Positions 35,160 through 54,229 of a DNA stretch of 64,000 nucleotides are shown piece after piece. The notes under the pieces were generated by a model. That model was not told where the DNA came from, did no database searches, and worked only from the letters and a program-made list of their open reading frames with translations. Each line of letters starts with the position of its first letter. Position 1 is the stretch's first letter. Both the position numbers and the translations under genes were made by a program. The DNA is from Hyalangium ruber (GTDB lineage: Bacteria; Myxococcota; Myxococcia; Myxococcales; Myxococcaceae): contig NZ_JAXIVS010000003.1 of assembly GCF_034259325.1 (NCBI RefSeq), positions 682,001 through 746,000 of the forward strand, written 5' to 3'.

Positions 35160-38100
35160 TCAGAACGCGAGCGGCAGCGAGAAGGCCGTGCCGTTGGACG
35201 TGCCCGTGCGGTAGCTCGTCGGCGCGCCGATGATCAACGTCGGCGGGCCTCCCTGGCCACCCGGTGAGAGCGACAGGTCCTGCCCGAAGTTGGACCGCTC
35301 CGTCGTGTCGCCGGTGATCAACATCCACGGAGTCATCCGGCCCTTCACCTGCGGCCCACCCGCGTAGATGAACACCGCGCCGCCTCCGTCCGACGCCTCC
35401 GAGGCGCCCGGCGCGCTCACCACCAGATCCGGCACGCCGTCGCCCGTCAGGTCCCGGCCACCCTCCAGCGCCCGGCCGAAGTTCACCGCACGCGTCCGGT
35501 GTACCAGCGTCTCCGGGGTCACCCCATCTCCCAGCGCGCCCACTAGCGCCTCGCCCGAAGCGGGCCGCCGCGCCACCAGCTTCGACGTCTCGAAGAGCAG
35601 CACCGCCGGCTGCGTCACCCCGTCGAACGGCACGCTCGTCGCGCTGATGGCGATCCGGTCCTTGCCATCCTTCAGGAAGTTGCCCAGCCGCACCGTCGCC
35701 ACGCCCATGCCCAGGTTGTTGCCACCCACCTCGGCGTCCGCCGCCAGCCGCACCCACGAGGCCGTCGTCCGCCCACCGCAGCGCCCCCCCGCCGGTTCGT
35801 AGCCGAAGAGGATGATGATGCCCGAGCGCCCCGTCTCCGTGTAGCGCCAGGACACCTCGTCGCAGCCATCCCCGTTCAGGTCGCCCAGCGCCGTCGGCGC
35901 CGACGTCTGCCGCGTCGTGGACCCATCCGTGAAGTACAGCGGGTCACACCCCATCGTCAGCTTCGCCAGCGACGCGTCATCCGGCGCACGCCCGGGGAAC
36001 ACCTCGAAGCCGTTGTTGCGCAGCGCTCCGATGTCCTCCCTGCCATCCCCGTTGAAGTCGAAGCCGCCCACCACCCCGCGGCCAATCTGGCTGCGCCGGC
36101 AGCGCGCGTCCGTGTCCGGCGTACACCCCGCGATCACCAGCGGCGCCCACAGCCGGTAGGCATCCTTGAAGGAGCCGTCCGCCTGCCCCAGCGACACCAT
36201 CAGTCCGCCCACGTTCGGGCCCGCCGAAGTCCCCGTGGTGGTGATGCACCCCGTCTTCTGCGCGGCGTACAGCGCCAGCTCGGCGGTCTGCCCCGAGCTC
36301 GGCAGGCTGAAGGAGTTCGCACCCACCACCAGGTCCGTGCGCCCATCCCCGTTGAAGTCGGTGAACGTCACGTCCGTGCCCACGCTGCGCCCACGCGCCA
36401 GCGGCGCCGTGCTCGCCCCCTCCGCCACCATCGTCGCCGCCGAGTTCTGCGTCGCGTTGTACACCCAGGCACGCCCCGCGGTGGTGTCCGCGCCGTCCGC
36501 GTTCGGTCCCGGCCCCGCGTAGCCCGGCGAGCCCACCAGCGCCACCGTCTGCCCGCCCGCGAGCGCCGCCGCTGCCACCACCTCGCCGAAGCGCTCCACC
36601 GCCGGGCGCGCCGGCACCGGAGCCACCGTCCGGCTCCACTCCGCCAGCGACGTGCCTCCGCGCAGGAAGGTCTCCACCCGTCCGGTGAAGGCCCCCGCGT
36701 CCGACGACGCGCGTCCGGAGAAGGCCACCAGCGCCGCTCCCGCCGGCCCCGTCCACGTCGTCATACCCACGCCCAACACGTCCGAGCGGGTTTGCCCGTG
36801 AATCACTCCCAGCGACTTGTTGATGACGCTGCCCGCGGCGAGCGTCGCCAGCGGATACGCCAGCACCCGGCCCGACAGCCGCAGCGTGGTGTTGTTGGGT
36901 CCCGGCGCGGCGGCGTTCGGTGCTCCCAGCACCAGCTCGCCACCCGGCTGCCCGTCCACGTCCATCACCGTGAAGCTCCGGCCCGCGAAGATGCTGCCGG
37001 CCTCGCCGTAGATGCGCGCGTAGGCCGCCTCCCGCAGCACCTGCACCGGCGTGTTCGACGGCTCTCCCGAGGGCTGATGGGCGCTCAGGTCGAAGATCAG
37101 CACACCGCCCGAATCCGGTCCGGACTGCACGCCCCCGCTGGTGCTCAGGTTCGGCGAGTCCGCCCGGTCCGCCACCGCCATCAGCAGCGGAGGCCGGGTG
37201 CCATCGGCCGGGGCCACGCCCAGGCGCCAGGTGCCCTCGTTGCTGTCCGCCGTGTTGCCCGGCACCACGTACACGTCCGGCGTGGCCCGGAAGCGCAGCC
37301 CGTCCGCGCGCCCGAAGAACACCGACACCGCCTGGAGCGCCACCGCCTGCGTGGTGCCGTCCGCCAGGTGGCGCGACACCTTGCTCAGCGCCGCCAGGTC
37401 CACGCGCCCGTCCGCGTTGAAGTCCGCCATCACCACCGCCCGGCCCAGGTCCGTGCTGCTGCGCGCCATGGGGTTGCCCGTGCGCGACAGGTCCGCGCCT
37501 CCCAGGCGAATGGCCGGCAGGTCCGGCACCGGCTGGCCCGGCGTGAGGGTGAAGATGTCCACCGTGCCGCGCCGGCTGATCGACGAGGTGGGCGCCAGGT
37601 CTCCCGCCGGCGCGCTGACGATGAGGTCCAGGTCCCCATCCCCGTCCGCGTCCGCCATGGCCAGACCCGTGCTGAAGGCACCGCCCCGGGCGAGGCTCGT
37701 CAGCGCCGGCCGCATCAGCTCCGGCCCGTTGGAGCCCCAGCGGTAGAGGTACACCGCGCCCGAGTCCGCGCCGGTGATGTCCGCGCCCGGCGAGCTCACC
37801 GCCAGCTCCGCCCGCCCGTCCTTGTCCAGGTCTCCCGCCGCGAGGTTGTCGCCGAAGGCCGCCGTGTCCGTCTGCCCGGTCAGCACCCACGTCGGCTGCT
37901 GGGGCAGCCCCGAGGGTCCGCCCTTGTAGATGAACACCGCGCCGCCCAGCGGCCGGTTGAGATCACTCTCGCGCTGGCCCACCGCCACGTCCTGTATCCC
38001 ATCCCCATCGAAGTCCGCGGTGATCAGGTGGGCCACGTCCGTGAGGCGGCCGCGGGGCTGCATGGTGCGCGTCAGGTCATCCAGCACGCGCACGGAGACG

Positions 38101-38891
38101 CGCGCCTTGTCCCCCGTGAAGGGGTCCGCCGCCTCCAGCACCATCACGCCCCGCGCCCCTGGCTCGAGGGTGACGCGAGCGCCCTCCAGCGAGCCCGGGC
38201 CGGTCACCTTCGTCCACGTCACCCGATTGCTCCCGCCCATGGTGCCCAGCGTCGTCGAGGAGCCCGAGGGCAGCGCCAGCACCTGCGGATCGCCCCGCAG
38301 CCGCGCGCTCGGCGTCACCTCGTACTCGAGACGGGCCACGTCGCCCGACTGCGTGTCGCGCACCTGCACCACGTCCAGGCCCGACGTCGCGCCCGCCGTG
38401 TACACGCCCGCGGGGGACAGCGTGCCGCCCGAGAGGTTCTCCACCAGGGTGTACTCGGCGTTGCCCAGGAGCCCCGCGGTGGCCACCTGGAAGGAGGTCC
38501 CCGGGCGCACCATGGCGCGGGAGGGCGCCACGTCGAAGGCGGACAGCACCTGCACCGTGGCCTGCGCGGAGCCCGTACACTGCACGTCCTCCACCACCAG
38601 CGTGTCCGAGGACGGGGTGTGGCCCGCGATGAAGCGGTCCCCGCGCATCTCGCCCGAGGAGCCTCCCGCCTCGGCACGGAAGCGGTAGTGGCCGCTGCCG
38701 CCCGAGGCGGTGAGCGCCACCACGCCGGAGACCCGCAGCCGCGTGGGCTCGGCCTTGAGCGCCAGCGGCGCCAGCCCGTCACACGCATCCACCACTGGCG
38801 GCTCTGGAGGGGGGCCCTCCGGCTCTTCACCCCCACAAGCCAGGGTCAGGAACGCGAACAGGGAGGCCGAGCGAGCGAGCAGTCGAGACAT
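35160..38891 (-). CDS. giant FG-GAP/integrin-alpha-like repeat lipoprotein
   Basis: 1243 residues. MSRLLARSASLFAFLTLACG is a lipoprotein signal (lipobox LACG). The first ~280 residues hold Ig-like sheet domains (GSGHYRF, SPAGVYTAG). The rest is FG-GAP/VCBS repeats with calcium-type loops such as DFDGDGIQD, DLDKDGRAE, DADGDGDLD, DFNADGRVD and DLNGDGCDE, forming at least one beta-propeller. Such lipoproteins are surface-exposed adhesion or scaffold proteins. It is last in a five-gene minus-strand operon (27-base gap to the heme lipoprotein) and may be the cell-surface component of that system. Confidence 0.85.
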   Translation of the reverse strand: MSRLLARSASLFAFLTLACGGEEPEGPPPEPPVVDACDGLAPLALKAEPTRLRVSGVVALTASGGSGHYRFRAEAGGSSGEMRGDRFIAGHTPSSDTLVVEDVQCTGSAQATVQVLSAFDVAPSRAMVRPGTSFQVATAGLLGNAEYTLVENLSGGTLSPAGVYTAGATSGLDVVQVRDTQSGDVARLEYEVTPSARLRGDPQVLALPSGSSTTLGTMGGSNRVTWTKVTGPGSLEGARVTLEPGARGVMVLEAADPFTGDKARVSVRVLDDLTRTMQPRGRLTDVAHLITADFDGDGIQDVAVGQRESDLNRPLGGAVFIYKGGPSGLPQQPTWVLTGQTDTAAFGDNLAAGDLDKDGRAELAVSSPGADITGADSGAVYLYRWGSNGPELMRPALTSLARGGAFSTGLAMADADGDGDLDLIVSAPAGDLAPTSSISRRGTVDIFTLTPGQPVPDLPAIRLGGADLSRTGNPMARSSTDLGRAVVMADFNADGRVDLAALSKVSRHLADGTTQAVALQAVSVFFGRADGLRFRATPDVYVVPGNTADSNEGTWRLGVAPADGTRPPLLMAVADRADSPNLSTSGGVQSGPDSGGVLIFDLSAHQPSGEPSNTPVQVLREAAYARIYGEAGSIFAGRSFTVMDVDGQPGGELVLGAPNAAAPGPNNTTLRLSGRVLAYPLATLAAGSVINKSLGVIHGQTRSDVLGVGMTTWTGPAGAALVAFSGRASSDAGAFTGRVETFLRGGTSLAEWSRTVAPVPARPAVERFGEVVAAAALAGGQTVALVGSPGYAGPGPNADGADTTAGRAWVYNATQNSAATMVAEGASTAPLARGRSVGTDVTFTDFNGDGRTDLVVGANSFSLPSSGQTAELALYAAQKTGCITTTGTSAGPNVGGLMVSLGQADGSFKDAYRLWAPLVIAGCTPDTDARCRRSQIGRGVVGGFDFNGDGREDIGALRNNGFEVFPGRAPDDASLAKLTMGCDPLYFTDGSTTRQTSAPTALGDLNGDGCDEVSWRYTETGRSGIIILFGYEPAGGRCGGRTTASWVRLAADAEVGGNNLGMGVATVRLGNFLKDGKDRIAISATSVPFDGVTQPAVLLFETSKLVARRPASGEALVGALGDGVTPETLVHRTRAVNFGRALEGGRDLTGDGVPDLVVSAPGASEASDGGGAVFIYAGGPQVKGRMTPWMLITGDTTERSNFGQDLSLSPGGQGGPPTLIIGAPTSYRTGTSNGTAFSLPLAF

Positions 38892-38918
38892 GGAAGTGAG
38901 ACTCCGAGGCTTCTCTAT

Positions 38919-40427
38919 TTACGGCTTGGCGCCAGAAGCAGCCCAGCGCTGGATCAGGGTGATGAGCTGCTGGTCCAGAGGACCGTCCGCGGGCATGCGC
39001 TGATCACGCACCGCCGCGGTGATGAGTTCCGCGTTCTCCTTCCACAGCTCATAGGTGGAGAGCTGGCGCCCCGGGCCGGAGATGTGGCACTTGGCGCAGC
39101 GCGCCTCGTGGATGGGGCGGATGTCCTTGTCCCAGCCGAGCACCACCGGGCCCACCGGCTGGAAGTCGAAGTACACCAGGCGCTTGGACTCGGAGCCATC
39201 CAGGAAGCGCGCCACCAGCTCGAGCACGTTCTTGCCCGGCTCCAGCGCGGCGAAGGAGTAGGGCTTGAGCTCCCCGTCCTTCTCCAGGCCGCCCAGGCTG
39301 TAGCCCGGCGCCTCCGCGACCACCTCCGCCCCGCCGATGCGGAACAGCAGCGTGGGCGTCTGCCCGGCCGGCGGCACCGCGCGCACCAGCAGGCTGTCCT
39401 CCACCACCCGCATGCCCTGGTGCAGTCCCAGCACGCGCGGCACGGGCGCGCGGCTGAGCACCACCGTCTCCGCGCCCAGCTGCACCCAGGCGCTGCCGCT
39501 CTCGTCCGCCGCCACGAAGCGGAACTCGCGCGTCTCCACGCCCGTGGCCAGGCCCCAGGAGTCCGCGTCCGCGTCATACAGCAACAGCTGATCGCTGGAC
39601 TTCACCCAGAGGAAGCGCCCGGCGCTCAGCAGCTGCACCGGCCGCTGGGCGAACTCCACCCGCCGCCACTTCCCGTCCTTGTGCCGCAGCAGCCGCTCCG
39701 AGGTGAGCACCCACAGCTCCGCCGTCGCGTCCTTCGACGCCTCCAGCCCCGCCATGGACACCAGCGTCTCCCTCTCGTCCAGCCGCAGCTCCGCCGGGCG
39801 CACCTGGTAGACGCCCGCCGCCGTGGCCACCGCCACGTACGGCTTGCCGTCCTTCAGCAGCCACACGCCCGGGGCCCCGTCCTCGGCCGGCGCCGCGGCC
39901 AGCACGGTGATGCCCTCCAGCGCCGCGCCATCCACCTTGAGCGCCGAGAGCTTGCCCTCATGGAGCCGGTAGAGCCCCGAGGTGTGCGCCAGCCACACCG
40001 CGCCATCGGCCGCCTGCGCCGTGGCCACCAGCCCCGGCCCCAGCGCGTCCCGCCACGGCGGGGCGATCAGCCAGCCCGCGTCCGCCAGGAAGAGACCCGT
40101 CTCGGTCTCCACCAGCGCGGTGCGAGGCCCCAGCCGGAACGCCGCGCGCGCCTTGCCCGGCGCCACCGCGTTGCCCGGGTGGCCCTCCAGCGGCGCGCGC
40201 GAGCCGTCTAGCCGCAGCCGGACCGGCGCTCCCGCCACGGAGACGAAGATGCCTCCGCCCGTCTGGTCGGCGAAGCCCGAACCCGAAGCAAGCGCCTCCT
40301 GCGAGCGCACCTGCGAGGCCTGGAAGGCCGTGGGCTGGGGCCGCTCCAACGGCAGGGTGGAGGAGCCCGAGGAGTCACCGCACGCGGCGGTGACGAGGAG
40401 GAGAAGGACGGGGGCGACAACCTTCAC
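38919..40427 (-). CDS. lipoprotein with propeller-like region and C-terminal c-heme domain
   Basis: About 502 residues. The chosen start is a GTG at 40425-40427 (KVVAPVLLLLVTAAC, lipobox TAAC), because it begins directly at the lipoprotein signal and has GGAGAGGG seven bases upstream. An ATG at 40469 would add MKKTNPLSPWERDG, which is a translated REP-like hairpin rather than a plausible signal. The middle ~360 residues are beta-rich with WLAHTSGLY, WLLKDGKPY and VLTSERLL repeats, propeller-like. The C-terminal ~75 residues hold CAKCH, a c-type heme site, in the typical IRPIHEARCAKCH context. It is fourth in the exported operon. Confidence 0.8.
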   Translation of the reverse strand: MKVVAPVLLLLVTAACGDSSGSSTLPLERPQPTAFQASQVRSQEALASGSGFADQTGGGIFVSVAGAPVRLRLDGSRAPLEGHPGNAVAPGKARAAFRLGPRTALVETETGLFLADAGWLIAPPWRDALGPGLVATAQAADGAVWLAHTSGLYRLHEGKLSALKVDGAALEGITVLAAAPAEDGAPGVWLLKDGKPYVAVATAAGVYQVRPAELRLDERETLVSMAGLEASKDATAELWVLTSERLLRHKDGKWRRVEFAQRPVQLLSAGRFLWVKSSDQLLLYDADADSWGLATGVETREFRFVAADESGSAWVQLGAETVVLSRAPVPRVLGLHQGMRVVEDSLLVRAVPPAGQTPTLLFRIGGAEVVAEAPGYSLGGLEKDGELKPYSFAALEPGKNVLELVARFLDGSESKRLVYFDFQPVGPVVLGWDKDIRPIHEARCAKCHISGPGRQLSTYELWKENAELITAAVRDQRMPADGPLDQQLITLIQRWAASGAKP

Positions 40428-40432
40428 CCCGT

Positions 40433-40453
40433 CCCTCTCCCAGGGGGAGAGGG
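40433..40453. repeat. REP-like inverted repeat overlapping a translation start
   Basis: CCCTCTCCC (40433-40441) pairs perfectly with GGGAGAGGG (40445-40453) with a three-base loop. Read on the minus strand, its GGAGAGGG arm sits where the ribosome site of the heme lipoprotein belongs. The peptide it encodes in one frame (PLSPWER) is the familiar translation of dispersed REP-like elements. A related hairpin is at 31803-31839. Confidence 0.65.
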
Positions 40454-40489
40454 GGTTTGTCTTCTTCATCCGCTTGGCTTTGCTTCGGT

Positions 40490-41884
40490 TCAGGCCAGGA
40501 TCGGCCGCAGCGGCTCGACGCGCGTGATGCTGTAGTCCAGGTTGGCCGAGGCCAGCACCGTGGCGATGACGTGCTCGGGCAGGATGTTCTCGCCCGTCGC
40601 CGTCGCCGCACCGTTGCGCAGGTCGAAGAGACCTGGCCCCATGCCGATGTCACCGCTCGCGCCGAACACGTAGTTGTGCTTCACGCCCGCGCCCATGAGC
40701 AGGCAGCTGTTGCACAGGTGGTGGTCTCGGCCGCCCGAGCCGTTGATGAGCGGGGTACGCGAGAACTCGGAGAACACCATGATGGTGGTGTGGTCCATGA
40801 AGTTGCCACCCGACGGGTGCGACGTGGCGCGCAGGTCGTCCACCAGCGTGGCCAGCGCGTCGAAACCGCGGCGCTGGTTGTTGGCGTGGTTGAGCTGGGT
40901 GCCGAAGTGCGTGTCCAGGCCGCCCGTGAGGTTGATGGAGACGCACTGGCTGATGCCCTGCTTGAGCGCGGTGGCCACCAGCGCCGCGCGGCCCGCCTCG
41001 GTGCTGTCGTAGCCGCCCGCGGGAGGGGTGGCCGCCAGCCCGTACTTCTGGCGCAGCTCCGCGTGCTCCGGCCGCTCGAAGCGGAAGGAGTTGTCCAGCC
41101 GGCCCGAGAGCACCGCCTGCATCTGGTCCCGGCTGTTCTCGTACGTCTCGCCCACGCCGCGCGCGCCGTAGGCCGCCGCCTCGCAGGAGATGGGCTGGCC
41201 CCGGAAGTCGATGAGCTGCTGCTCGATTTCACTGTCCAGCGTGCGCGTGCTGGGCGACAGCGTCAGCAGCAGGTCGTTGGAGCGGCTGACCCGCAGCGCG
41301 TTGGCGTGGCCGGGGTAGCGGTCGTTGTACGTCTCGATGTTGTAGGCGATCGACGGAATCGGCACACGCGGGGCGAGCTGGCCGACGATCTCCGTGGCGG
41401 TGGTCGAGCCACGCGCCGCGCTGCCGATGGGGCGCTTGCCGGTCAGGAAGTAGCGGAAGCCCACCTCGTGGCCCAGCGTCGTCATGTTGATGCCGCGCAC
41501 CACCGTCATCAGGTCGAAGTGGTTGGACAGCCGCCCCACCGCGGGCCCGAAGGTGATGTTCGAGAGCACCCCGTCCTTCTCGGGTACCAGCGGCATGCCC
41601 GAGAAGCGCGAGTCATTGATGAGGTTGTAGCCCGGCAGGATGCGCGTCTCGGAGATGCGCTCGGCGGTGAAGACCGTCGGGTCTCGCGGGTCGAACGCCA
41701 GCAGCTGGTCCCAGCCGCCGGAGAAGTACGCGAAGACGAAGCAGCGGTCTGGCGGGGCCAGGTTCGCCGCCTGGGCGAAGGCCCGGAAGGGCACGCCTCC
41801 GAAGAGGGTGGCGCCCATGAAGCCGGCGGCCGCCTTGAGGAAGGTGCGGCGCTCGGGGTTCGGAGAGTTCGGGTTCTTCTTCAT
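40490..41884 (-). CDS. DUF1501 family Tat-exported protein
   Basis: 464 residues with a twin-arginine signal (RRTFLKAAAGFMGATLFGG) ending near FAQA. DUF1501 proteins belong to the alkaline-phosphatase/sulfatase-like clan; here FAYFSGGWDQLLAFDPRDP, GHEVGFRYFLTG, TGGLDTHFG, MVFSEFSRTP and GRDHHLCNSCLLMGAG match the family's conserved blocks, including the FSEFxRTP and DHH motifs. Activity is unknown; the clan suggests a metal-dependent hydrolase in the periplasm. It is third in the operon, 16 bases after the upstream gene and 20 before the heme lipoprotein start at the upper ATG. Confidence 0.9.
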   Translation of the reverse strand: MKKNPNSPNPERRTFLKAAAGFMGATLFGGVPFRAFAQAANLAPPDRCFVFAYFSGGWDQLLAFDPRDPTVFTAERISETRILPGYNLINDSRFSGMPLVPEKDGVLSNITFGPAVGRLSNHFDLMTVVRGINMTTLGHEVGFRYFLTGKRPIGSAARGSTTATEIVGQLAPRVPIPSIAYNIETYNDRYPGHANALRVSRSNDLLLTLSPSTRTLDSEIEQQLIDFRGQPISCEAAAYGARGVGETYENSRDQMQAVLSGRLDNSFRFERPEHAELRQKYGLAATPPAGGYDSTEAGRAALVATALKQGISQCVSINLTGGLDTHFGTQLNHANNQRRGFDALATLVDDLRATSHPSGGNFMDHTTIMVFSEFSRTPLINGSGGRDHHLCNSCLLMGAGVKHNYVFGASGDIGMGPGLFDLRNGAATATGENILPEHVIATVLASANLDYSITRVEPLRPILA

Positions 41885-41900
41885 GGCAGGGGTCCCCGAG

Positions 41901-42566
41901 TCAGTAGGTGAGGAAGCGCGAGTCCGTCATCATCGCGATGCACACGGCCGCGAAGGCGTGGTCTCGCTTGCGGATGGTCTCGGAACGGGCGGCGGCCTGG
42001 GTGAAGAAGGCCTGCCACTTCGTGAGCTCGTCGCCATGCAGCGGCGCGCCCCAGAAGCGGGTGGACAGGTAGACGAGCAGCTCGCTCTTCTGCGCGTCCG
42101 TCAGCTGGGTGAGGTTACCCGCCGTGCCGCTCACGACGGGCAGCGTCCGGCTGAGCACCCGGGCGTTGGGGTCGGCCACCGACATCTCGGCGGCCGCCTG
42201 CGCCAGGCACACCTCACGGGCCCCGTCCTCGAGGAACTTGGCGAACACCAGGTTGGGCTCGGTGTTCTCGGTGACGATGTTGGCGTAGTCGGCCCGGCCC
42301 AGCGAGGCAGCCAGGTTGTCGAGCTGCGTCCACGGGCGGCCCACCGTCTTCTCGATGCTCGTCTTGAGCTGAGCCACGGTGATGCGGCGAGGGGCACGGC
42401 CGACCGACCCCTCCTGCACCTCGGGGTCCGGCAGCGGGGTGACGCTGCCGTGGGGGTTGGGGATGGGCTCGAGCTGCCCGTCCATGGGCGGAGGCAGAGG
42501 CGTCTCCTCCGACTTGGAACAGGCGGGCGCGAGCGCGAGCAACGCGAGGGCGACGAGGCGGCGCAT
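41901..42566 (-). CDS. lipoprotein of the DUF1501 operon
   Basis: 221 residues. MRRLVALALLALAPAC gives a lipoprotein signal (lipobox APAC), followed by a Pro-rich linker and a helical domain containing a single internal Cys-bearing helix, and ends with AFAAVCIAMMTDSRFLTY. That ending is like the C-terminal helix of planctomycete-type DUF1585/DUF1800-like proteins that pair with DUF1501. Its ATG overlaps the previous gene's stop by one base (TGATG), so the two are translationally coupled. Function unknown. Confidence 0.75.
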   Translation of the reverse strand: MRRLVALALLALAPACSKSEETPLPPPMDGQLEPIPNPHGSVTPLPDPEVQEGSVGRAPRRITVAQLKTSIEKTVGRPWTQLDNLAASLGRADYANIVTENTEPNLVFAKFLEDGAREVCLAQAAAEMSVADPNARVLSRTLPVVSGTAGNLTQLTDAQKSELLVYLSTRFWGAPLHGDELTKWQAFFTQAAARSETIRKRDHAFAAVCIAMMTDSRFLTY

Positions 42567-44548
42567 CAGTCGATCCTCCGGTAGGCGTCGGTCATCAGCA
42601 GCTTCTCGATGAGCGCCTTGAGGTTGTGATTGCTACGAGAGAACTCCTGCGAGAGCGGCGCCAGGTACAGGCGGCTCTCCTCCGTCGTCATCGGCCGGCC
42701 GAGGAACTCCGTCCAGATGCGGCGCACCGTGCAGCGCTCCAGGTCACCCGTCTGCAGCATGCGCTCCACCAGCAGCTTCGGGCCGGCCTCGATGTTCGCC
42801 TCCTCCTCGGCCGTGCGGTACAGGTACGTCTTGAGCATGCCCAGCGAGTTGGCGCCGTCGCCGTCGAAGGCCTGCATCACGTACTGGCCGCACTCGCCGC
42901 CGCAGTTGGTGTCACCCGCCAGGGCGCAGTCGCGGCACTTCGGATCGAAGCGCGGGAACTTCTCGGGCGTGAGGAACAGCGAGTTGCGCTCGTCGTAGCG
43001 GCCCCAGTGCGCGCCCGTGGGCTCGATGGTGGCGTGGCAGTAGTTGCAGCCGCAGCGCCGGGCCAGGTTGTTCTCCCGGTTGCAGTTGTCCTCGGGCGGA
43101 GGCAGCGGGTCCGAGGACGGGACGAACGTCTTGCAGAGGAAGGCCTCGTAGAAGTGGTTCACACGGGCGCGCTGCGTGGGGAAGCGGTAGAGGAACGAGG
43201 GCGTGGTGAGCACACCCGAGTGCGACGCGTCCCGCGTGTACTCCTCCCAGGTGTCCACCTGCAGGTAGGGGATGGCCGGCATCACGCTCAGGTCCGCGGG
43301 CGCGGTGATGGTGAAGATGCCGACGCCCTGCTGCTGCCGGTAGAACTCGGACATGGTGCCGTTCACGAAGGAGCGGCGCGTGGTGAGGATGTTGAAGTAG
43401 GGCTCCTCGCGCTCGATGACCGAGTTGGCGATCAGCTCCGGCTCCTCGTTGATGGCCGAGATGCGGGCGGTGTGCGTGGCGGCCACCTCGCAGCGGCGCA
43501 TGCCCGTGCCGCAGCCGCAGCTCCGGTCACGCGCGAAGCGCGTCGTCTCGCACGACTCCAGCGTCCACGGGTTGATGTCGCGCTCCTGCGCCTCGATGGC
43601 GCACACGGTCACCGGCGTGGGCTCGGTGGCGAAGAAGGGCGCGGGCTTCGTGACGTAGCCCTCGCGCTGGATGCAGCCGCGCACCGGGGTGTAGGCGCCC
43701 TTGACGCCGTTGCGCAGCGGCTGCTCCAGGGTGCAGCGATCCAGCCGGGTGAGGTTGGTGCCCGCGGGCGGGTTGGGGTGTACGAAGGCCACCACCTTGG
43801 TGCCCTCCAGCTCCTCCTGCGTCAGCACGTTGGTGGTGCTCTTGTTCGGATCCGGCAGGCACAGGTGCGGGTGGAGCCGACCGTCGCCCAGCCGCCGCAT
43901 GTCGCAGAAGTTCAGGTGCTTGGCCGGCACCAGCCCCTTGGTCACCGCCACGTCGCACGAGGTGACGGTGGTGTCGGTGCTGTCCAGGCGGGTACACGCG
44001 AAGAAGTTGGTGTCGTAGTCGTAGCTCACCGGCAGCGGGACGCCCTGGGCGTCACGGCATACCTTGGTGGCCGGCTCCGAGTGCGGGTCCTGCCGCGACG
44101 CGGTGGCGCCGCAGTTGTCCTGCTCGATGTAGGCGTCACACGACTGGTTGTTCACGCCGCGCAGCGAGGTGCTGGTATTGCCCCGCAGGCCGAGCGGGTT
44201 GTTCGCCCCGCCGGTGCCCACCAGGCGCGTGTCTCCGTTATCGAACACGCTGCCGGAGACGTTCGAGCGCAAGAGCGCGCGGTGGTAGCCGCGCATGCGC
44301 TCATAGAACTCATCCGAGCTCATCATTCCCCGGATGTCCTCCGGGGCGATGGAGCCCTTGGCCTGATAGGCCCGATACTCCTCGATGGTGGGGGGGCGAC
44401 CGAGCAGGTCGAGAGAGAGCTGTCGAAGATGACGCTCGAGGGGGACCTTCGTCACGGGAGCGCAGACCGCCTCTTGAGCCAGAGCGGGGGTTGCGATCAG
44501 CAGGGCGAAGGCCGCGAGAGCGGTGATACAGCGTCGCACGCGAGGCAC
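42566..44548 (-). CDS. secreted DUF1588/DUF1585-like protein with c-type heme-like motif
   Basis: 660 residues from a GTG at 44546-44548, chosen because GGAGG lies five bases upstream and the Sec signal (RRCITALAAFALLIATPALA) follows at once. The N-terminal part contains a PSD1/DUF1592-like helical segment (LRQLSLDLLGRPPTIEEYRA). The centre has TPSFLYRFPTQRARVNHFYE and CGCNYCHATIEPTGAHWGRYDE (DUF1588-like, with CNYCH as a possible heme site), and the end GRPMTTEESRLYLAPLSQEF is DUF1585-like. Many other Cys suggest disulfides. First gene of the exported five-gene operon; its promoter should lie in 44549-44706. Confidence 0.8.
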   Translation of the reverse strand: MPRVRRCITALAAFALLIATPALAQEAVCAPVTKVPLERHLRQLSLDLLGRPPTIEEYRAYQAKGSIAPEDIRGMMSSDEFYERMRGYHRALLRSNVSGSVFDNGDTRLVGTGGANNPLGLRGNTSTSLRGVNNQSCDAYIEQDNCGATASRQDPHSEPATKVCRDAQGVPLPVSYDYDTNFFACTRLDSTDTTVTSCDVAVTKGLVPAKHLNFCDMRRLGDGRLHPHLCLPDPNKSTTNVLTQEELEGTKVVAFVHPNPPAGTNLTRLDRCTLEQPLRNGVKGAYTPVRGCIQREGYVTKPAPFFATEPTPVTVCAIEAQERDINPWTLESCETTRFARDRSCGCGTGMRRCEVAATHTARISAINEEPELIANSVIEREEPYFNILTTRRSFVNGTMSEFYRQQQGVGIFTITAPADLSVMPAIPYLQVDTWEEYTRDASHSGVLTTPSFLYRFPTQRARVNHFYEAFLCKTFVPSSDPLPPPEDNCNRENNLARRCGCNYCHATIEPTGAHWGRYDERNSLFLTPEKFPRFDPKCRDCALAGDTNCGGECGQYVMQAFDGDGANSLGMLKTYLYRTAEEEANIEAGPKLLVERMLQTGDLERCTVRRIWTEFLGRPMTTEESRLYLAPLSQEFSRSNHNLKALIEKLLMTDAYRRID

Positions 44549-44706
44549 TGGGACCTCCGAGGGGGGGTGCTGGATGACTCGCGGCGTGTTATGCCCGTAT
44601 TTCCGATCTTTAGCTAGTCCCCTTTCACACACAGTGTAGGTGTTCGCGAGACCCACACCACGCGGAGCAGTTGCAAGTGTGCGTGGTTCCAGACATTCAG
44701 GGGGGC
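44549..44706. promoter_or_regulatory. divergent promoter region of the exported operon and DUF420 gene
   Basis: This 158-base gap separates two divergent starts and is locally AT-rich around 44590-44640. It must contain promoters for both directions. No clear -35/-10 pair was found by eye. Confidence 0.4.
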
Positions 44707-45270
44707 ATGTCGAACGCTACCCCTGTTCCCGCGTCTCGCGTCAGCGATCGGACCTTCTACGTCTTCACGGGCGTCGTGTCGGTCGCGGCCCTGGCCCTGC
44801 TGGCTTATCTGCTGCTGATCCGGCGCGGCGGGGCGACGGGCATGGATCTGCGCTTCATGCCGGCGGTGAACGCGGGCCTCAACGCGCTGGCGGCGAGCCT
44901 GCTGGTGGCGGGCTGGGTGGCCATCAAGCGCGGGGCGCGGCGAGTCCACCAGTACCTGATGGTGTCCGCCTTCGCGGCCTCGGCGCTCTTCCTGGTGGGC
45001 TACCTCGCCTATCACTACGTCCACGGAGACACGAAGTACGCCGGAGAGGGGGCGATGCGGGCGGTGTACCTGGCGGTGCTGGCCAGCCACGTGCTCCTGT
45101 CCATGCCGGTGGTGCCGATGGCGCTGGTGGCCTTCTACTTCGCCTGGCGCAAGGACTTCGGGCGCCACCGCAAGGTGACGCGCTGGCTGGCCCCCATCTG
45201 GGTCTATGTGTCGGTGACGGGCGTGCTGGTGTTCTTCCTGCTGCGCGGCAGCTTGCCGGCCTCTCCGTAG
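44707..45270 (+). CDS. DUF420 membrane protein (CtaM/YozB-like)
   Basis: 187 residues from the ATG at 44707, with GGGGG just before it. About five membrane helices. The conserved features of the family are visible: a His-containing loop (RRVHQYLMVSAF), LAYHYVHG, and SHVLLSMPVVPMAL, giving His residues at helix ends that suit heme or copper handling. In Bacillus and Staphylococcus, DUF420 proteins (CtaM) support maturation of aa3-type oxidase. It could serve the terminal oxidase fed by the bc module at 3045-5676, but is not linked to it. Its stop is one base from the convergent kinase gene stop. Confidence 0.88.
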   Translation: MSNATPVPASRVSDRTFYVFTGVVSVAALALLAYLLLIRRGGATGMDLRFMPAVNAGLNALAASLLVAGWVAIKRGARRVHQYLMVSAFAASALFLVGYLAYHYVHGDTKYAGEGAMRAVYLAVLASHVLLSMPVVPMALVAFYFAWRKDFGRHRKVTRWLAPIWVYVSVTGVLVFFLLRGSLPASP

Positions 45271-45271
45271 C

Positions 45272-46447
45272 TCAGCCCTGCCGGGGCGCCTCCAGCGGCG
45301 CGCTCCGGGACAGCTCGCGGGGCAGATGGACGGTGAAGGCCGCGCCGTGCCCCTCCTCGCTCTCCACCTCGATGGTGCCGCCGTGCAGCTCCACCAGCCG
45401 GCGCGTGCTCGCCAGCCCCACGCCACTGCCGACGAAGTCCTTCGCCACGTTGCTGCCCCGGTGGAAGCGCTCGAAGATGTACGGCAGGTCCTTCAGCGGG
45501 ATGCCCACGCCTGGGTCCTCCACGCGCAGCCGCACCGCGCCGTCCGGGCCCGGCGAGTCCTCGGCCACCGTCACCTGGATGGGGCCTCCCTCGGGGCTGT
45601 ACTTCACGGCGTTGCTCAAGAGGTTGTCCAGCACCCGCTCCAGGGCGGCGGTGTCCCAGTGGCCCGAGAAGTCGGAGCCCCGCGCGTCCAGCTGGAAGGT
45701 GTGCCGAGGCGCCGTGCTCTCCAGCTCGCGCACCTTGGCGCGCACCAGGGCGAGCAGATCCACCTGCGCGCGGCGCAGCGGCTGCTCCTGGCCCCGCGTC
45801 GCCTCCAGGAAGTGGTCGATGAGCTCGCCCATCCGCGTGGCCGCGCGGACGATGCCCGCCAACCGCTCCCGGGAGGACGTGTTGAGAGACTCGACGGGGA
45901 TCTTGCTGCGCAGGAGTTGGGCGTTGAGGGTGATGATCTGCAGCGGCCCCTTCAAGTCATGCGTCGCCAGGGCGAACATCTCGTCGCGCACGGCCAGGGC
46001 CTCGCGGGCCGCCTTCTCGGCGCGCTCGGCCTGGTGACGCCGCTCCTCCACCGCATGCACGAGGCGCACCGCCTCCATCGCAGCGCGCAGGCTGTGGCGC
46101 AGCCGCTCGGGGGAAAAGGCATCCTTGATGAGGTAGTCCTGGGCGCCCGCCTTCATGGCCTCGGCCGCCACGTGCTCGCTGCCGCTGCCGGTGAGCAACA
46201 CCGCCGCGGGGGTTCGGACGCCCAACCGCTCGCGCACCGCTTGCAACAGCTCCACCCCGCTCATCCCCGGCAGGTGGAAGTCCATCAGCAAGACGTCCGG
46301 CGGCGACTGGGTGGCACGCGCCAGCCCCTCCTCGGCGGTGGAGACGAACTCCACCTCCCACTGCGTGTCCGGATCCTTCTCCAGCGCACGCCGCACCCGG
46401 ATTCGGTCGGAGGTGCTGTCATCCACCAGGAGGACGCGCACTCTCAT
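45272..46447 (-). CDS. response regulator-histidine kinase hybrid (receiver first)
   Basis: 391 residues from the ATG at 46445-46447, preceded by GAGGAGGGG. An N-terminal receiver (about 1-125; LLVDDS, phospho-Asp in LLMDFHLPGM, TGSGS, Lys in DYLIKDAF) is joined by a coiled coil to HisKA (LATHDLKGPLQIITL) and HATPase_c (NLLSNAVKYSP, DPGVGIP, GSGVGLAS). No membrane segment. Ten bases downstream of the bacteriophytochrome gene, so it is likely its signalling partner: phytochrome kinase to this receiver, then onward through its own kinase. Confidence 0.9.
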   Translation of the reverse strand: MRVRVLLVDDSTSDRIRVRRALEKDPDTQWEVEFVSTAEEGLARATQSPPDVLLMDFHLPGMSGVELLQAVRERLGVRTPAAVLLTGSGSEHVAAEAMKAGAQDYLIKDAFSPERLRHSLRAAMEAVRLVHAVEERRHQAERAEKAAREALAVRDEMFALATHDLKGPLQIITLNAQLLRSKIPVESLNTSSRERLAGIVRAATRMGELIDHFLEATRGQEQPLRRAQVDLLALVRAKVRELESTAPRHTFQLDARGSDFSGHWDTAALERVLDNLLSNAVKYSPEGGPIQVTVAEDSPGPDGAVRLRVEDPGVGIPLKDLPYIFERFHRGSNVAKDFVGSGVGLASTRRLVELHGGTIEVESEEGHGAAFTVHLPRELSRSAPLEAPRQG

Positions 46448-46457
46448 GGCCCCCTCC

Positions 46458-48704
46458 TCATCCCAGCCCTCGACCGAGGGTGAAATAGAAGGTGGAGCCC
46501 TGACCGAGCGCGGAGTCCACCCACAGCTTGCCCCCGTGCAGTCCCACCAGCCGGCGGGCAATCGCCAGCCCCGCGCCCGTCCCGCCGCCGTACGCCTGCT
46601 CGGGGTGCAGCCGACGGAACAGCTCGAAGATGGCTTCGTGGAAGCGCGCGTGAATGCCGATGCCGGGGTCTCTCACGTAGAAAACGTAGGGTGCATCCGA
46701 CCGCCTCGCAGCGGCGGGCCGAGCATCTCCGGGTCCATGGTAACCCACTTCAATCCAGGGCGCGGAACCCTCCTGGTATTTCACGGCGTTGGACAGCAGG
46801 TTGATCCACACCTGGCGGATGCGGATGGCGTCACACCGCACGGTGGGCAGGCGGCGAGGCACGCGCACCTCGACCCGGCCCTGCTCCAGTCGGGCGGAGA
46901 GGAGCTGCAGCACCTCCTCCAGCAGGTCCTGCATGTCCACCTCGCCCCAGGCCAGCTCCAGGCGGCCCACGCGGCTGTACTCGAAGAGCCCCTCCAGCAT
47001 CTCCCCCGAGCGCTGCGCCAGCCAGAAGATGGAGTCCAGGTAGCTGGTGCCCTCCTGGCCCAGAGACTTCCCATGGTCCTCTCGGAGGAACTCCGCGTAC
47101 TGGCGGATGCCGCGCATGGGCTCCTGCAGGTCGTGCGCGACGGTGTGGCCGAAGGCATCCAGCTCCGCGTTGGAGCGAGCCAGGGCCTGGGAGAGGCGAG
47201 AGAGCTCCTCGGCCTGGCGCAGCACCACGCCCACCAGGGCGCCCCGGAAGCTCTCGGCCGCCTCGAGGTCCGCGCGCGTCCACGGCCGGCTGGCGCCGCG
47301 CACCGTCTCGGTCCACGCACGAAAGGAGGCGCGCGGGTGGAGCCGGTGCTGGCCAGGCTCCGGCACCGCCGGCTTCTGGGGATTGCCCGCCCAGGTGACG
47401 GTGCGCGCCACCTCCGAACGGAACCAAAGGGCAAAGCGCGGCGCGGCCGGATCCAACCGCACCGCCAGCAGCCCGGCCGCCACGTCCGCGCGCTCGGCCA
47501 GGGGCGGATACAGGGCCCCGAGGCGCTCGGTGTGGAAGACGGTCTCGAAGGGCTGCGCCATGAGCCACGGCACCAGCGCCGCGAGCTCCTGCTCCGACGG
47601 GGTGGCCCCTACCTCCACCGGCGCCTCGCCCAGCAGCAGCGCCGCGCCGGTGGCCCCGAGCGGCTCCAGCATCAACGCGGCGTGCTGGGGCAAGCAGTCC
47701 GCCAGCGGCGCCTTCGCGTGTCCCAGCTCCGTGGCGAGCTTCTCCAGGAGCCTCGCGCGGCGCGAGTGCTCGAGCGCCTCGCCCGCGCGCTGCTCGGCCT
47801 CCAGTTGCAGCGTCAGCAGCCGGGTGAACACCTCGCAGGCCCGGCGCCGCTCGTGCGAGACATGCAGGGGCGCGTGGTGGTGGCAGGCGATGAGCCCCCA
47901 CAACTTGCCGTCCTGGAGCAGCGACAGGGAGAAGGAGGCCTCCACGCCCATGTTGTGCAGGTACTCCAGATGCACCGGAGACACGCTGCGCAGCGCAGCG
48001 CCCGACAAGTCCAGGGGGCGCCCCCGACCAGGCAGCACCACGGGCACCAGCGGCACGGGCCGGGCGCGCGCGTCGGCGATGAGGCGCAAGGGGTTGCGCG
48101 TATAGAGGGCGCGGGCCTGGGTGGGAATGTCGCTGGCGGGGAAGTGCATCCCCAGGAAGCTGTCCACCCCCTCCGCCCGGCTCTCGGCGAGCACCTCGCC
48201 ATGCCAGTCCGCGTCGAAGCGGTACACCATCACCCGGTCGAAGCCCGTCAGCGCCCGCACCGCGTCCGCCGCGGCCTGCAAGAGCGCCTGCGCCCCTTGG
48301 GCTCCCGGCAGCGGGGACACGAGCCGCCGCACCCACTCCAACGAGTGCTCCTCCGTGCTGGCGTCGGCCTCGGCCGGCTCCAGCTCCAGCACCGTCAGCC
48401 CGTCGCTCTCATGCCACAGGGCGCGAAAGGCCGTGCCCCCCAGCTCCACGCGCGCGGAGCCGGCTGGAGAAGGCGCACCCAGCCGGGCGAGCACCTGCGC
48501 CGGCAGCACCTGCTCCAGCGACTTGCCGAGCAGTTCCTGGGGCGGGCTCCCGAGCAGCGCCTGGGCGTTGGCGCTCACCACCGCCAGGGTGCGCTGGGGA
48601 CCCTCGAAGGCCAGCAGCACACCATGGGGTTGGATGCCCCCGAGCAGGTGGATGGGCTCCCGGTCACACTGGCTGAGGTCCACCTCATGCGTCGGCAACG
48701 ACAT
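46458..48704 (-). CDS. bphP: bacteriophytochrome histidine kinase
   Basis: 748 residues. A red/far-red photoreceptor kinase that binds biliverdin through an N-terminal Cys: here Cys13 in LSQCDREPIHLLGGIQPHG, the canonical position. PAS (about 10-125), GAF (about 135-310; the PASDIPTQARALY motif and a His-rich CHHHAPLHVS stretch), PHY (about 320-510; tongue motif HPRASFRAWTETV), HisKA (FGHTVAHDLQEPMRG) and HATPase_c (NLLSNAVKY, GTGAGLAIA) follow in order. It overlaps the heme oxygenase gene by 20 bases, so chromophore supply and apoprotein are made together. Confidence 0.95.
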   Translation of the reverse strand: MSLPTHEVDLSQCDREPIHLLGGIQPHGVLLAFEGPQRTLAVVSANAQALLGSPPQELLGKSLEQVLPAQVLARLGAPSPAGSARVELGGTAFRALWHESDGLTVLELEPAEADASTEEHSLEWVRRLVSPLPGAQGAQALLQAAADAVRALTGFDRVMVYRFDADWHGEVLAESRAEGVDSFLGMHFPASDIPTQARALYTRNPLRLIADARARPVPLVPVVLPGRGRPLDLSGAALRSVSPVHLEYLHNMGVEASFSLSLLQDGKLWGLIACHHHAPLHVSHERRRACEVFTRLLTLQLEAEQRAGEALEHSRRARLLEKLATELGHAKAPLADCLPQHAALMLEPLGATGAALLLGEAPVEVGATPSEQELAALVPWLMAQPFETVFHTERLGALYPPLAERADVAAGLLAVRLDPAAPRFALWFRSEVARTVTWAGNPQKPAVPEPGQHRLHPRASFRAWTETVRGASRPWTRADLEAAESFRGALVGVVLRQAEELSRLSQALARSNAELDAFGHTVAHDLQEPMRGIRQYAEFLREDHGKSLGQEGTSYLDSIFWLAQRSGEMLEGLFEYSRVGRLELAWGEVDMQDLLEEVLQLLSARLEQGRVEVRVPRRLPTVRCDAIRIRQVWINLLSNAVKYQEGSAPWIEVGYHGPGDARPAAARRSDAPYVFYVRDPGIGIHARFHEAIFELFRRLHPEQAYGGGTGAGLAIARRLVGLHGGKLWVDSALGQGSTFYFTLGRGLG

Positions 48705-49335
48705 CCGTCACCTCCCGGCCCAGCCAGGCCTCGAAGGCGTCGAACGTGTCCTGCGCGCCGCGCACCACCCGCGCGTCGAAGCTCTCGGAGGCCTCGGCGG
48801 CCGAGACGCGGGTCACCGCCTCGCCGAAGGCCTTCCACATGGGCCCCACCTCCTCGCCGTAGGCCCGGAAGAAGGCGAAGGCGCCCACGGGCGCTCCCGC
48901 GAAGTGTTTCTGGAGGTGGCGGAGGATGAGCTGGCCGCCCAGCGTGGAGCCCTCGAGGACGTAGAAGCAGCCCAGCGCCTCGGGCAGGCCGGTCAGCGCC
49001 GGGAGCGTGGAGGCGCGGGGCAGGCGCGCCAGCGAGGCGGCGTCATGCCCTAGCGCCGCGAGGTCCTCCTCGAGCAGCGGCAGCTTCCAGCGCTCGGTGG
49101 CTCGCAGCTCCGGCACTCGCCCCGAGAGACAGTCGGCGAGCGCCTCCTCCAGCGGAGCAAAGAGCCCGTAGAGCGCCTCCAGGTGTCGCCGGTACCCCTC
49201 GGGCGTCAACCCTGGCTCCAGCAAGCGCACCGTGCGCTCGGCCCGTTCATGGTGCGGGCGGGTTTCCGTCTTCAATCGCAGGAGCAGGGTCTGAGGTGCC
49301 GGGGGCAAGCACTTCGTAGGATGGACTGGCTTCAT
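48685..49335 (-). CDS. bphO: biliverdin-producing heme oxygenase
   Basis: 216 residues. Opens heme to biliverdin, the chromophore of the adjacent bacteriophytochrome. All-helical heme oxygenase fold: proximal His in [24 protein letters not shown], and the distal helix Gly-rich motif [14 protein letters not shown]. The reading frame extends 20 bases into bphP. The upstream kinase gene stops 55 bases before this start on the same strand. Confidence 0.92.
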
Positions 49336-51688: not shown

Positions 51689-54229
51689 CTACTCGCAGTA
51701 ACCGCTGGTGCGGTTACACGTGAAGTTGCTGCCGCACACCTCGCGCACGGTGCAGTCGGGCAAGCACTGGCCCGCCCCCGCCTCGTCGTCGTAGCAGACG
51801 TAATCCGCGCGGCAAGTGCTCCGCCCCTGGCTGGGTCCCGAGCAGTTGGCGATGCAGACCTTGTCGTCCGAGGAGCTGCCCACCACGTAGCACTTGGAGC
51901 CCGCCGGGCAGCCCTGGGTGTCGCAGTCGCGAGTGCAGTAGCCCCCCGGGTAGCTCGTCACGCACCGGCCGCCGTCCGGGCAGTCGGTGTTGCTCTGGCA
52001 GGCCGCGCCCACCACCAGCGCGGGCGAGTCATCCACCGGCGCCAGCGGCACCAGATCGAAGCTGATGTTGCCGATGTCCTGGTCCACCGCGAGTGGAATG
52101 GGCTCGAAGTCGTCCACGTTCCGCCAGAAGCCCGTGAGCTCCTCGTCCTCGAAGAACTCTCCGTCCTCGTCCTCGTCGATGGTCGCCAGCGCGTAATAGG
52201 TCTGCGGCGGCATGTCGATGGCGTACGTATAGCCGCGCGCGGCCTCGGCCACGGCGATGGTGTTCTCCTCCACCTGCCACTCGCCCAGCTCGTCCTGCCA
52301 CGCGAAGGCCACCACCGCGTCCAGGCCCTGCGCCACCGCGCCCACGCGGATCTTCACCGTCACCGTGGCGCTGCCCGCCGGGCCTCCTCCCGCCGCGCTC
52401 GTGCCGGTGAGGGTGAGCGTGGCCGAGTACTCCCCGTCCGCCAGCCCCGAGGCGTTCGTCACTACGTCCAGCGCGGCGGTGGAGAAAGCCGACAGCGACA
52501 GCGTGGGCCCCGGCAGGGACACCGCTCCGGCCTGGGGCCCGCTCTTGGCCGCCGTCACGTTCAGCGTGCCGCCGCCCAGGTTGGACACGAGGATGCGCTG
52601 GGTGTCGCTGCCGTTGAAGGACAGGAGCGTGGTGGTGATGCCCAGCTTCGGCGGCTCGTTGGAGGAGCCACCCTGCGCCAGCTTCAGCGCCGCCTGCGCG
52701 TTCACCAGCCCCGCGCCGCAGCCCTCGGAGCATCGGCTGCTGGCGCTGGCGGTCGTCTTGAGGATGTTCTCCACCTGCTGCGCGTTGAGGCTGGGGTTGA
52801 CCGCCAGCATCAGCGCCACCACGCCCGCCACGTGCGGGGTGGCCATGCTCGTGCCCTGGTTGAAGACATAGGCGGGCTGGTCATCCTCGTCGAACGAGGT
52901 GGAGAGCACCCCGTCCGCGTACCCGTCTCCGTTGAGGTCCTCGCGCATCTCGCCCCCGGCGGCCATCACGTCCACCGGCGCGCCGAAGTTGGAGAAGCTG
53001 CTGCGCGTGCCGGCGAAGTTCGTCGAGCCCACGCAGAGCACGTTCTGCTGGTTGCACGGCGTGGTGCCCGTGGCGTCCACGTTCTCGTTGCCCGCGGCGA
53101 TGACGTAGATGGCGCCCGCCGTCACCCGCGCGTCGATGACGTCCTGGTAGGTGCGCTGCGGCGAGGAGGCGCCGCCCAGGCTCATGTTGATGACCTTGGC
53201 GGGCGTGGGATTGTTGGGCACTCCGGACACCGTGCCACCCGCGGCCCAGTTCATCGCCGCGGCGATGTCGAAGCTGGTGCCGCCCTGCCGGCCCAGCGCT
53301 CGCACCGGGAGGATGCGCGTGCTCCACGTCACCCCCGCCACGCCGCTGGCGTTGTCCGTCGCCGCGCCGATGGTGCCCGCCACATGCGTGCCGTGCCACG
53401 AGGAGCCCCCGTTCGGCTCGTCCCCGCCCCGGTCCGTGGGGTCGCTGTCACGGCCGCTGCCGTCCCCGCTGTTGGACGTGTCGGAGATCATGTCGTAGCC
53501 GGCGATGACGCGCGCGTTGAGGTCCGGATGCGAGGCGATGCCGGTGTCGATGACGGCCACCGTCACCGCGTCGCCGCCGGTGCTCACGTCCCAGGCGGAC
53601 GGCAGGTTGATGGCCGGGTAGTGCCACTGCACCCCGTAGCTCTTGTCGTTGGGCGTGCGCAGCGCGTACATGCGCAGGTTCTTCTCCGTGAAGCGCACCC
53701 CCGGCACCTGCGCGAGCTGAGCGACGAGCTGCCCCGTCTCCTCCACCGTCACCGTGTGCCCGTCCAGCGCCTCGAAGCCCACCAAGTGCAGGTGCTCGCT
53801 GGCGTAGCCCTTGTGCGCCACGCGGTAGCCGGGCAGCGTCACCCGCTCCAACGCCACGGGCGCCTCCAGCCCCGCCGCCTCGAAGCGGACAATCACGTCT
53901 CCGGCGATGGTGGGGTCCTCCGCGGGCAGCCGCTTGAGCGGCGGGGGGCCCATGGGCGGCGGGACGATGAGCGGATCCGGCAGCGTCACCTCGATGGCGG
54001 ACTTACGCGTGCCGAGCCCCTGCTGCCGAGTGACGGCCCGCGAGAGGGCCTGCGAGAGCCGGACCGCTGCGTCTCCCTGGAGCGGCGCGGGGCGCGCGGT
54101 GGGCTGCGCGGAGGAGCGTCCCCCGCCCTTCTGGAAGGGAGTCAACTTGCCCTGGATGCGACCCGAGGGCTCCTCCTCGCAGGCGGTGAGCAGCAGCAGG
54201 CCCAGGATGAGCAATCGGCGCATCGACAT
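51689..54229 (-). CDS. subtilisin-like (S8) serine protease lipoprotein
   Basis: 846 residues. MSMRRLLILGLLLLTAC is a lipoprotein signal (LTAC); ATG at 54229 has GGAGGGG just before it. An I9-like propeptide region (about 90-185) precedes the S8 catalytic domain with Asp228 (VIDTGIASHPDL), His279 (WHGTHVAG) and Ser461 (GTSMATPHVAG). A beta-sandwich domain follows (about 540-650), then a C-terminal Cys-rich region (about 745-846) with repeated C-x-D-C and CPxGxxC patterns, EGF/antistasin-like. Probably a surface protease with substrate-binding modules, suited to predation or development. Confidence 0.92.
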   Translation of the reverse strand: MSMRRLLILGLLLLTACEEEPSGRIQGKLTPFQKGGGRSSAQPTARPAPLQGDAAVRLSQALSRAVTRQQGLGTRKSAIEVTLPDPLIVPPPMGPPPLKRLPAEDPTIAGDVIVRFEAAGLEAPVALERVTLPGYRVAHKGYASEHLHLVGFEALDGHTVTVEETGQLVAQLAQVPGVRFTEKNLRMYALRTPNDKSYGVQWHYPAINLPSAWDVSTGGDAVTVAVIDTGIASHPDLNARVIAGYDMISDTSNSGDGSGRDSDPTDRGGDEPNGGSSWHGTHVAGTIGAATDNASGVAGVTWSTRILPVRALGRQGGTSFDIAAAMNWAAGGTVSGVPNNPTPAKVINMSLGGASSPQRTYQDVIDARVTAGAIYVIAAGNENVDATGTTPCNQQNVLCVGSTNFAGTRSSFSNFGAPVDVMAAGGEMREDLNGDGYADGVLSTSFDEDDQPAYVFNQGTSMATPHVAGVVALMLAVNPSLNAQQVENILKTTASASSRCSEGCGAGLVNAQAALKLAQGGSSNEPPKLGITTTLLSFNGSDTQRILVSNLGGGTLNVTAAKSGPQAGAVSLPGPTLSLSAFSTAALDVVTNASGLADGEYSATLTLTGTSAAGGGPAGSATVTVKIRVGAVAQGLDAVVAFAWQDELGEWQVEENTIAVAEAARGYTYAIDMPPQTYYALATIDEDEDGEFFEDEELTGFWRNVDDFEPIPLAVDQDIGNISFDLVPLAPVDDSPALVVGAACQSNTDCPDGGRCVTSYPGGYCTRDCDTQGCPAGSKCYVVGSSSDDKVCIANCSGPSQGRSTCRADYVCYDDEAGAGQCLPDCTVREVCGSNFTCNRTSGYCE

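Follow-up and report, generated by a model that had tools for sequence, protein, structure and literature searches.

The window analysed here is a stretch of 64,000 nucleotides from the 10.8-Mb genome of Hyalangium ruber (contig C3), and on its minus strand, between positions 35160 and 44548, lie five co-directional open reading frames in the order A-B-C-D-E (Table 1). The first-pass annotation had described five genes joined by overlaps or short gaps, and both the coordinates and the spacing bear this out: A and B overlap by 1 bp, and the gaps at B/C, C/D and D/E are 16, 20 and 27 bp. The stop of A and the start of B overlap as TGATG, an arrangement kept in 40 of 47 loci, and the GTG start of A at 44548 is preceded by a ribosome-binding site, GGAGGT, that is conserved in most orthologs. 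The dN/dS ratio is below 0.6 in all five genes, which lends weak support to purifying selection, since dS is distorted by the high GC content. A search of the five proteins against NCBIfam gave no family above cut-off, the PADLOC models of anti-phage defence gave no match up to an E-value of 0.01, and in none of the five was a carbohydrate-binding module (CBM) or a domain known to bind glycans detected.

Table 1. Features of the operon and its upstream flank in the window
Feature	Coordinates	Strand	Length	Description
Gene E	35160..38891	-	1243 aa	Lipoprotein; FG-GAP (integrin-type) repeats
Gene D	38919..40469	-	516 aa	Lipoprotein; sensor-type (Reg_prop-like) propeller, Ig-like segment, C-terminal class-I cytochrome c
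Gene C	40490..41884	-	464 aa	DUF1501; Tat signal; alkaline-phosphatase-superfamily fold
Gene B	41901..42566	-	221 aa	Lipoprotein; weakly PSD5 (DUF1595)-like
Gene A	42566..44548	-	660 aa	Sec signal; PSCyt2/PSD-type; one CXXCH
Intergenic region	44549..44706		158 bp	Between A and the divergent DUF420 gene
DUF420 gene	44707..45270	+		Membrane protein

The region upstream of A holds the conserved GGAGGT together with a conserved promoter-like stretch. Of the 42 Myxococcaceae loci that have upstream sequence, 39 show the DUF420 gene (E=3e-41) beyond it, divergent from A. The gene is kept there even where every other neighbour differs, and it stays in deeper lineages where the phytochrome, heme oxygenase and LigD neighbours drop away; these three neighbours, being lost there, were set aside as operon partners. 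The DUF420 product may be linked to cytochrome oxidase assembly; alternatively, the shared promoter region may be all that connects its gene with the operon. Also in the window is a row of heme oxygenase, bacteriophytochrome-like and response-regulator/histidine-kinase genes close to the operon (45272-49335, minus strand), which are kept in close relatives only. A further gene (51689-54229, minus strand), read by eye, encodes a large subtilisin-like protease lipoprotein whose C-terminal repeats are rich in Cys.

A profile of A, searched against bacterial and archaeal genomes with each species represented once, yielded 49 loci, 45 of them in Myxococcaceae, including Myxococcus (M. xanthus among them), Corallococcus, Pyxidicoccus, Archangium, Hyalangium, Citreicoccus and metagenome-assembled genomes. 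The 45 comprise 33 loci with the full A-B-C-D-E order, M. xanthus included, 11 that end at a contig edge, and L063 (labels beginning with L denote individual A-type loci, and G000 is the window genome). The order is therefore kept in 33 of the 34 loci long enough to judge; in the exception, L063, C is followed by other genes, and a fragment of E lies on another contig of that genome. The possibility that the five genes are together in no related genome, named in the first-pass annotation as what would refute its reading, thus does not hold. In a survey of the phylum, 81 of 96 Myxococcaceae genomes proved to have an A ortholog of full or nearly full length, and the genome of M. xanthus AM003 encodes a single A and a total of two DUF1501 proteins. 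One locus, L064 (BNCN01000002.1), carries the title Comamonas sp. KCTC 72670, and its complete myxobacterial operon and flanks make it look like a mislabelled Myxococcus.

All five products appear to be exported, as had been proposed from the window alone, and the signals (Sec, lipoprotein, Tat, lipoprotein, lipoprotein) hold across orthologs: Sec in A, and lipoboxes in 42 of 46 B, 32 of 38 D and 31 of 34 E proteins. A twin-arginine RR stands at the N-terminus of C in all 43 orthologs, 40 recognised by pattern and three by eye (as in RRTIL and RRFFL); the TAT_signal model scores below its cut-off in C. In M. xanthus, Lys at position +2 of a lipoprotein directs it to the inner membrane and Ala at +7 to the matrix (PMC3222651). 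By inspection, B, D and E of the window have neither residue, and they are thus likely outer-membrane lipoproteins, with signals that are silent on which face of the membrane they occupy.

By its profile score, C is a DUF1501 (PF07394) protein (91.9 bits against a cut-off of 27; residues 50-415; E=6e-26). A search of PDB sequences with C found nothing. Structure prediction, a check proposed in the first-pass annotation, gave a model (pLDDT 77, pTM 0.81) with an alkaline-phosphatase-superfamily fold, closest to nucleotide phosphodiesterases (Z 19.7, rmsd 3.5, 251 residues aligned). PafA and sulfatases scored Z 17-19, and alkaline-phosphatase-fold transferases, such as lipoteichoic acid synthase, were also among the matches. 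Invariant in 31 C orthologs are D59, T136, H139, D324, H326, E373, R376, R386, D387 and H388; H139, D324-x-H326, the acid at 373 and H388 are largely common to distant DUF1501/DUF1552 paralogs, and T136 is specific to the clade, being not conserved in those paralogs. From the model and these residues, C is probably an enzyme whose metal site is modified, and T136, by its motif position and the fold, is a candidate nucleophile.

Gene A encodes PSCyt2-like N-terminal helices, a Cys-rich beta middle, a PSD4/PSCyt3-like part bearing the CXXCH (CNYCH) and a PSD2-like C-terminus. Its sole domain above threshold is PSCyt2 (DUF1549), at 30.5 bits against a cut-off of 29.8 and covering only positions 13-85 of 209. 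With PSD4, PSCyt3 and PSD2 matching below threshold beside it, we regard A as a hybrid of two PSCyt architectures, of the sort described in Verrucomicrobia (PMC5615132). Among 34 A orthologs, PSD2 recurs in 33, PSCyt2 in 29, PSD4 in 22 and PSCyt3 in 16; PSD5, the piece that A lacks, matches B weakly, in six of 12 members. The PSCyt2-PSD1 family requires both domains above cut-off and does not include A, in which PSD1 (DUF1553) reaches 15.3 bits against 28.5, and PSD5, PSD4, PSCyt3 and PSD2, the family of DUF1552 partners, are all below cut-off in A and B, so that by profile score neither complete PSCyt/PSD architecture is present in these two proteins. DUF1588, named for A in the first-pass annotation, is not its main likeness. 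DUF1800 matched two A members weakly and did not match A of the window.

Each of 47 A orthologs has one CXXCH, and C501, C504, H505, H514 and many other Cys residues are invariant in 34 sequences. On this motif A may bind heme. The predicted structure has a mean pLDDT of 82, its CXXCH region is poorly modelled and no distal ligand is evident there, which makes heme in A less certain than in D. The model of A had no confident match among PDB folds, and the one PDB sequence match was at chance level. A helical likeness of the ends of A to phycobilisome linkers (Z 5.3) fell below the trust level of the tool and was not used.

Each of 38 D orthologs likewise has one CXXCH (CAKCH), and C458, C461, H462 and M492 are invariant in 19 sequences, M492 and P493 forming the invariant Met-Pro of class-I cytochromes c; by this complete heme motif, CXXCH with a distal Met, D is a class-I c-type cytochrome. 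Its end matches small cytochromes c, and members match Cytochrome_CBB3 and PccH weakly; no match of D to PSCyt1 (PF07635) was reported. The propeller of D is closest in profile to hybrid two-component sensors (3v9f, E=3.3e-9; 4a2l also among the closest), a group to which D does not belong, since the protein ends in a cytochrome c and has no kinase. Pfam recognised the Ig-like segment solely in the relative L125. The first-pass annotation had presented a heme lipoprotein with a propeller as a gain of this locus; the heme lipoprotein is there, and the novelty is partial, because propeller (WD40) genes neighbour DUF1501 genes in Planctomycetes (PMC5587647) and PSCyt genes can carry WD40 domains (PMC5615132). 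E is an FG-GAP lipoprotein as had been noted (E=4e-39), its surface position being presumed, and its sequence matches include integrin alpha subunits. The window genome has one E (next-best match 1.4e-6). A literature search on FG-GAP proteins in M. xanthus gave nothing relevant.

In other families of Myxococcota the parts are ordered differently: outside Myxococcaceae, and in paralogs within it, the order is D-A-B-C (for example in L091, L092, L093, L121, L123, L126, L139 and L140), and E is optional. A relative of E (E-values 5e-59 to 2e-82) lies divergent and directly ahead of D or a D-like gene in L090, L093, L121 and L125, and in several distant lineages E is absent both near D-A-B-C and elsewhere in the genome. 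Because these genomes keep the rest, we treat E as an added, non-essential part, and D-A-B-C is the likely core. The occurrence of the same parts in two arrangements argues well for a functional unit. Conserved as it is, and intact after rearrangement, the set gives good support to the earlier notion of a self-contained exported unit akin to Planctomycete DUF1501/PSCyt genes. A related set at L042 (G001:C381, 250-6255) consists of A, B, C and a second A, with the two A-type genes flanking C. In the window genome, other DUF1501/DUF1552 genes on C14 (about 16-21 kb; L143), C5 (L146) and C1 (L147) each adjoin an A-like gene that bears a CXXCH, E being absent. In some distant or exceptional sets, inspection by eye picked out ECF-sigma-like genes: beside L091 (7139-7753) and L092 (7214-7828), and after C in L063. 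These genes recall Rhodopirellula, in which sigma factors have been proposed as controllers of PSCyt genes.

We tentatively favour, with a confidence somewhat short of even, the reading that the operon encodes a hydrolase-cytochrome complex, anchored in the outer membrane, whose substrate is a polymer or an ester. In this scheme C, exported folded by Tat, would be a metal-dependent hydrolase of the alkaline-phosphatase superfamily, and its target may be an ester (phosphate, sulfate or similar) in a polymer outside the cell or in the periplasm. A and B would be translationally coupled, and A would form a helical, Cys-rich heme scaffold that holds C. D, a sensor-type propeller anchored by lipid and carrying a c-type heme, would bind a ligand or partner and exchange electrons with A, and E, where present, would be a large lipid-anchored binding or adhesion part. 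The analysis itself establishes the gene set with its conservation and rearrangement, the export signals, the fold and invariant residues of C, and the complete heme motif and propeller type of D. We infer complex formation, the activity and substrate of C, the heme in A, the electron path and the role of E, and likewise the redox or polymer-breakdown function that the first-pass annotation had raised as a possibility. A bolder extension, which we consider unlikely, is an outer-membrane machine of a kind not described before, in which the sensor propeller couples the alkaline-phosphatase-type hydrolase to a c-type cytochrome chain for redox-gated or redox-assisted attack on extracellular polymer, and of which the Planctomycete PSCyt/DUF1501 systems would be expanded relatives.

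Chance assembly of five separate genes, with E an unrelated FG-GAP lipoprotein, might be read from the other genes after C in L063 and from the absence of E in several distant genomes; it is largely refuted by the conserved order in the family, the re-association in another order outside it and the single E of the window genome, and we regard it as very improbable. The sensor likeness of the D propeller, together with the ECF-sigma-like genes beside L091, L092 and L063, might instead point to an extracytoplasmic sensing complex, in which D is the ligand- and redox-sensing part of a two-component-type sensor minus its kinase, E and C bind the cell surface or a glycan, and the regulator is separate. 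However, the set has no conserved kinase or transmembrane partner, the residues kept in C are like those of an enzyme, and the upstream two-component and phytochrome genes do not remain neighbours of the set in deeper lineages, so that we consider sensing an unlikely role.

It is also rather unlikely, in our judgement, that the five proteins assemble or modify the exopolysaccharide or surface matrix of the cell itself, C being transferase- or esterase-like and the CXXCH motifs serving in part a structural instead of a redox role. The lipoteichoic acid synthase among the structural matches of C would fit such a machine, as would the DUF1501/DUF1800 pairs that travel with chitin synthase (PMC5122149), but none of the genes conserved beside the set is for polysaccharide synthesis, and the heme ligands of D are complete and invariant. 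An A ortholog occurs in 72 of 72 Myxococcaceae genomes of at least 8 Mb against nine of 24 smaller ones, which would also suit matrix production, although genome size is confounded with lineage. For the favoured hydrolase-cytochrome complex, the evidence from relatives is indirect and by analogy: PSCyt genes can carry CBMs and lie close to sulfatase genes (PMC5615132), DUF1501-DUF1800 genes were transferred with chitin synthase, and WD40 genes neighbour DUF1501 genes in Planctomycetes (PMC5587647).

Comparison with known systems places these parts among several families. C shares its fold and several metal-ligand-like residues with the alkaline-phosphatase superfamily (NPP phosphodiesterases, PafA, sulfatases), but at 7-14% identity and with an altered ligand set and nucleophile position; its activity is a prediction. 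The propeller region of D resembles the Bacteroidetes hybrid two-component sensors (3v9f, 4a2l), whereas D is a lipoprotein that ends in a cytochrome c, without transmembrane helix or kinase. Like the DUF1501-DUF1800 operons of Proteobacteria, the operon pairs a Tat-exported DUF1501 protein with a large helical protein; unlike them, it has a heme partner and FG-GAP repeats, which are not reported there, and its A has no DUF1800 match. The layout also resembles that of the PSCyt2-PSD1 and DUF1501 pairs of Planctomycetes and Verrucomicrobia, which also set a Tat-exported DUF1501 protein beside a large exported PSCyt/PSD protein, with a propeller gene nearby and heme motifs, and to which the DUF1552 pairs are related. 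The exported assembly may be seen as the Myxococcota version of the PSCyt/DUF1501 module. It differs in that A joins PSCyt2 to PSD4/PSCyt3/PSD2-like parts, the PSD5-like B is separate, D combines a sensor-type propeller with a CBB3/PccH-like cytochrome that does not score as PSCyt1, E is added, and the unit is single-copy. Planctomycetes and Verrucomicrobia have many PSCyt/PSD/DUF1501 proteins, to which no function has been assigned (PMC5615132); in Rhodopirellula, PSCyt2 and PSD1 have about 41 copies each (PMC2754498), and such redundancy, with dozens of copies, makes their function hard to test there. The rearranged but complete sets define the likely core and the optional part of the module, and its presence as a single-copy unit in the genetically tractable M. 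xanthus makes this unexplained system testable.
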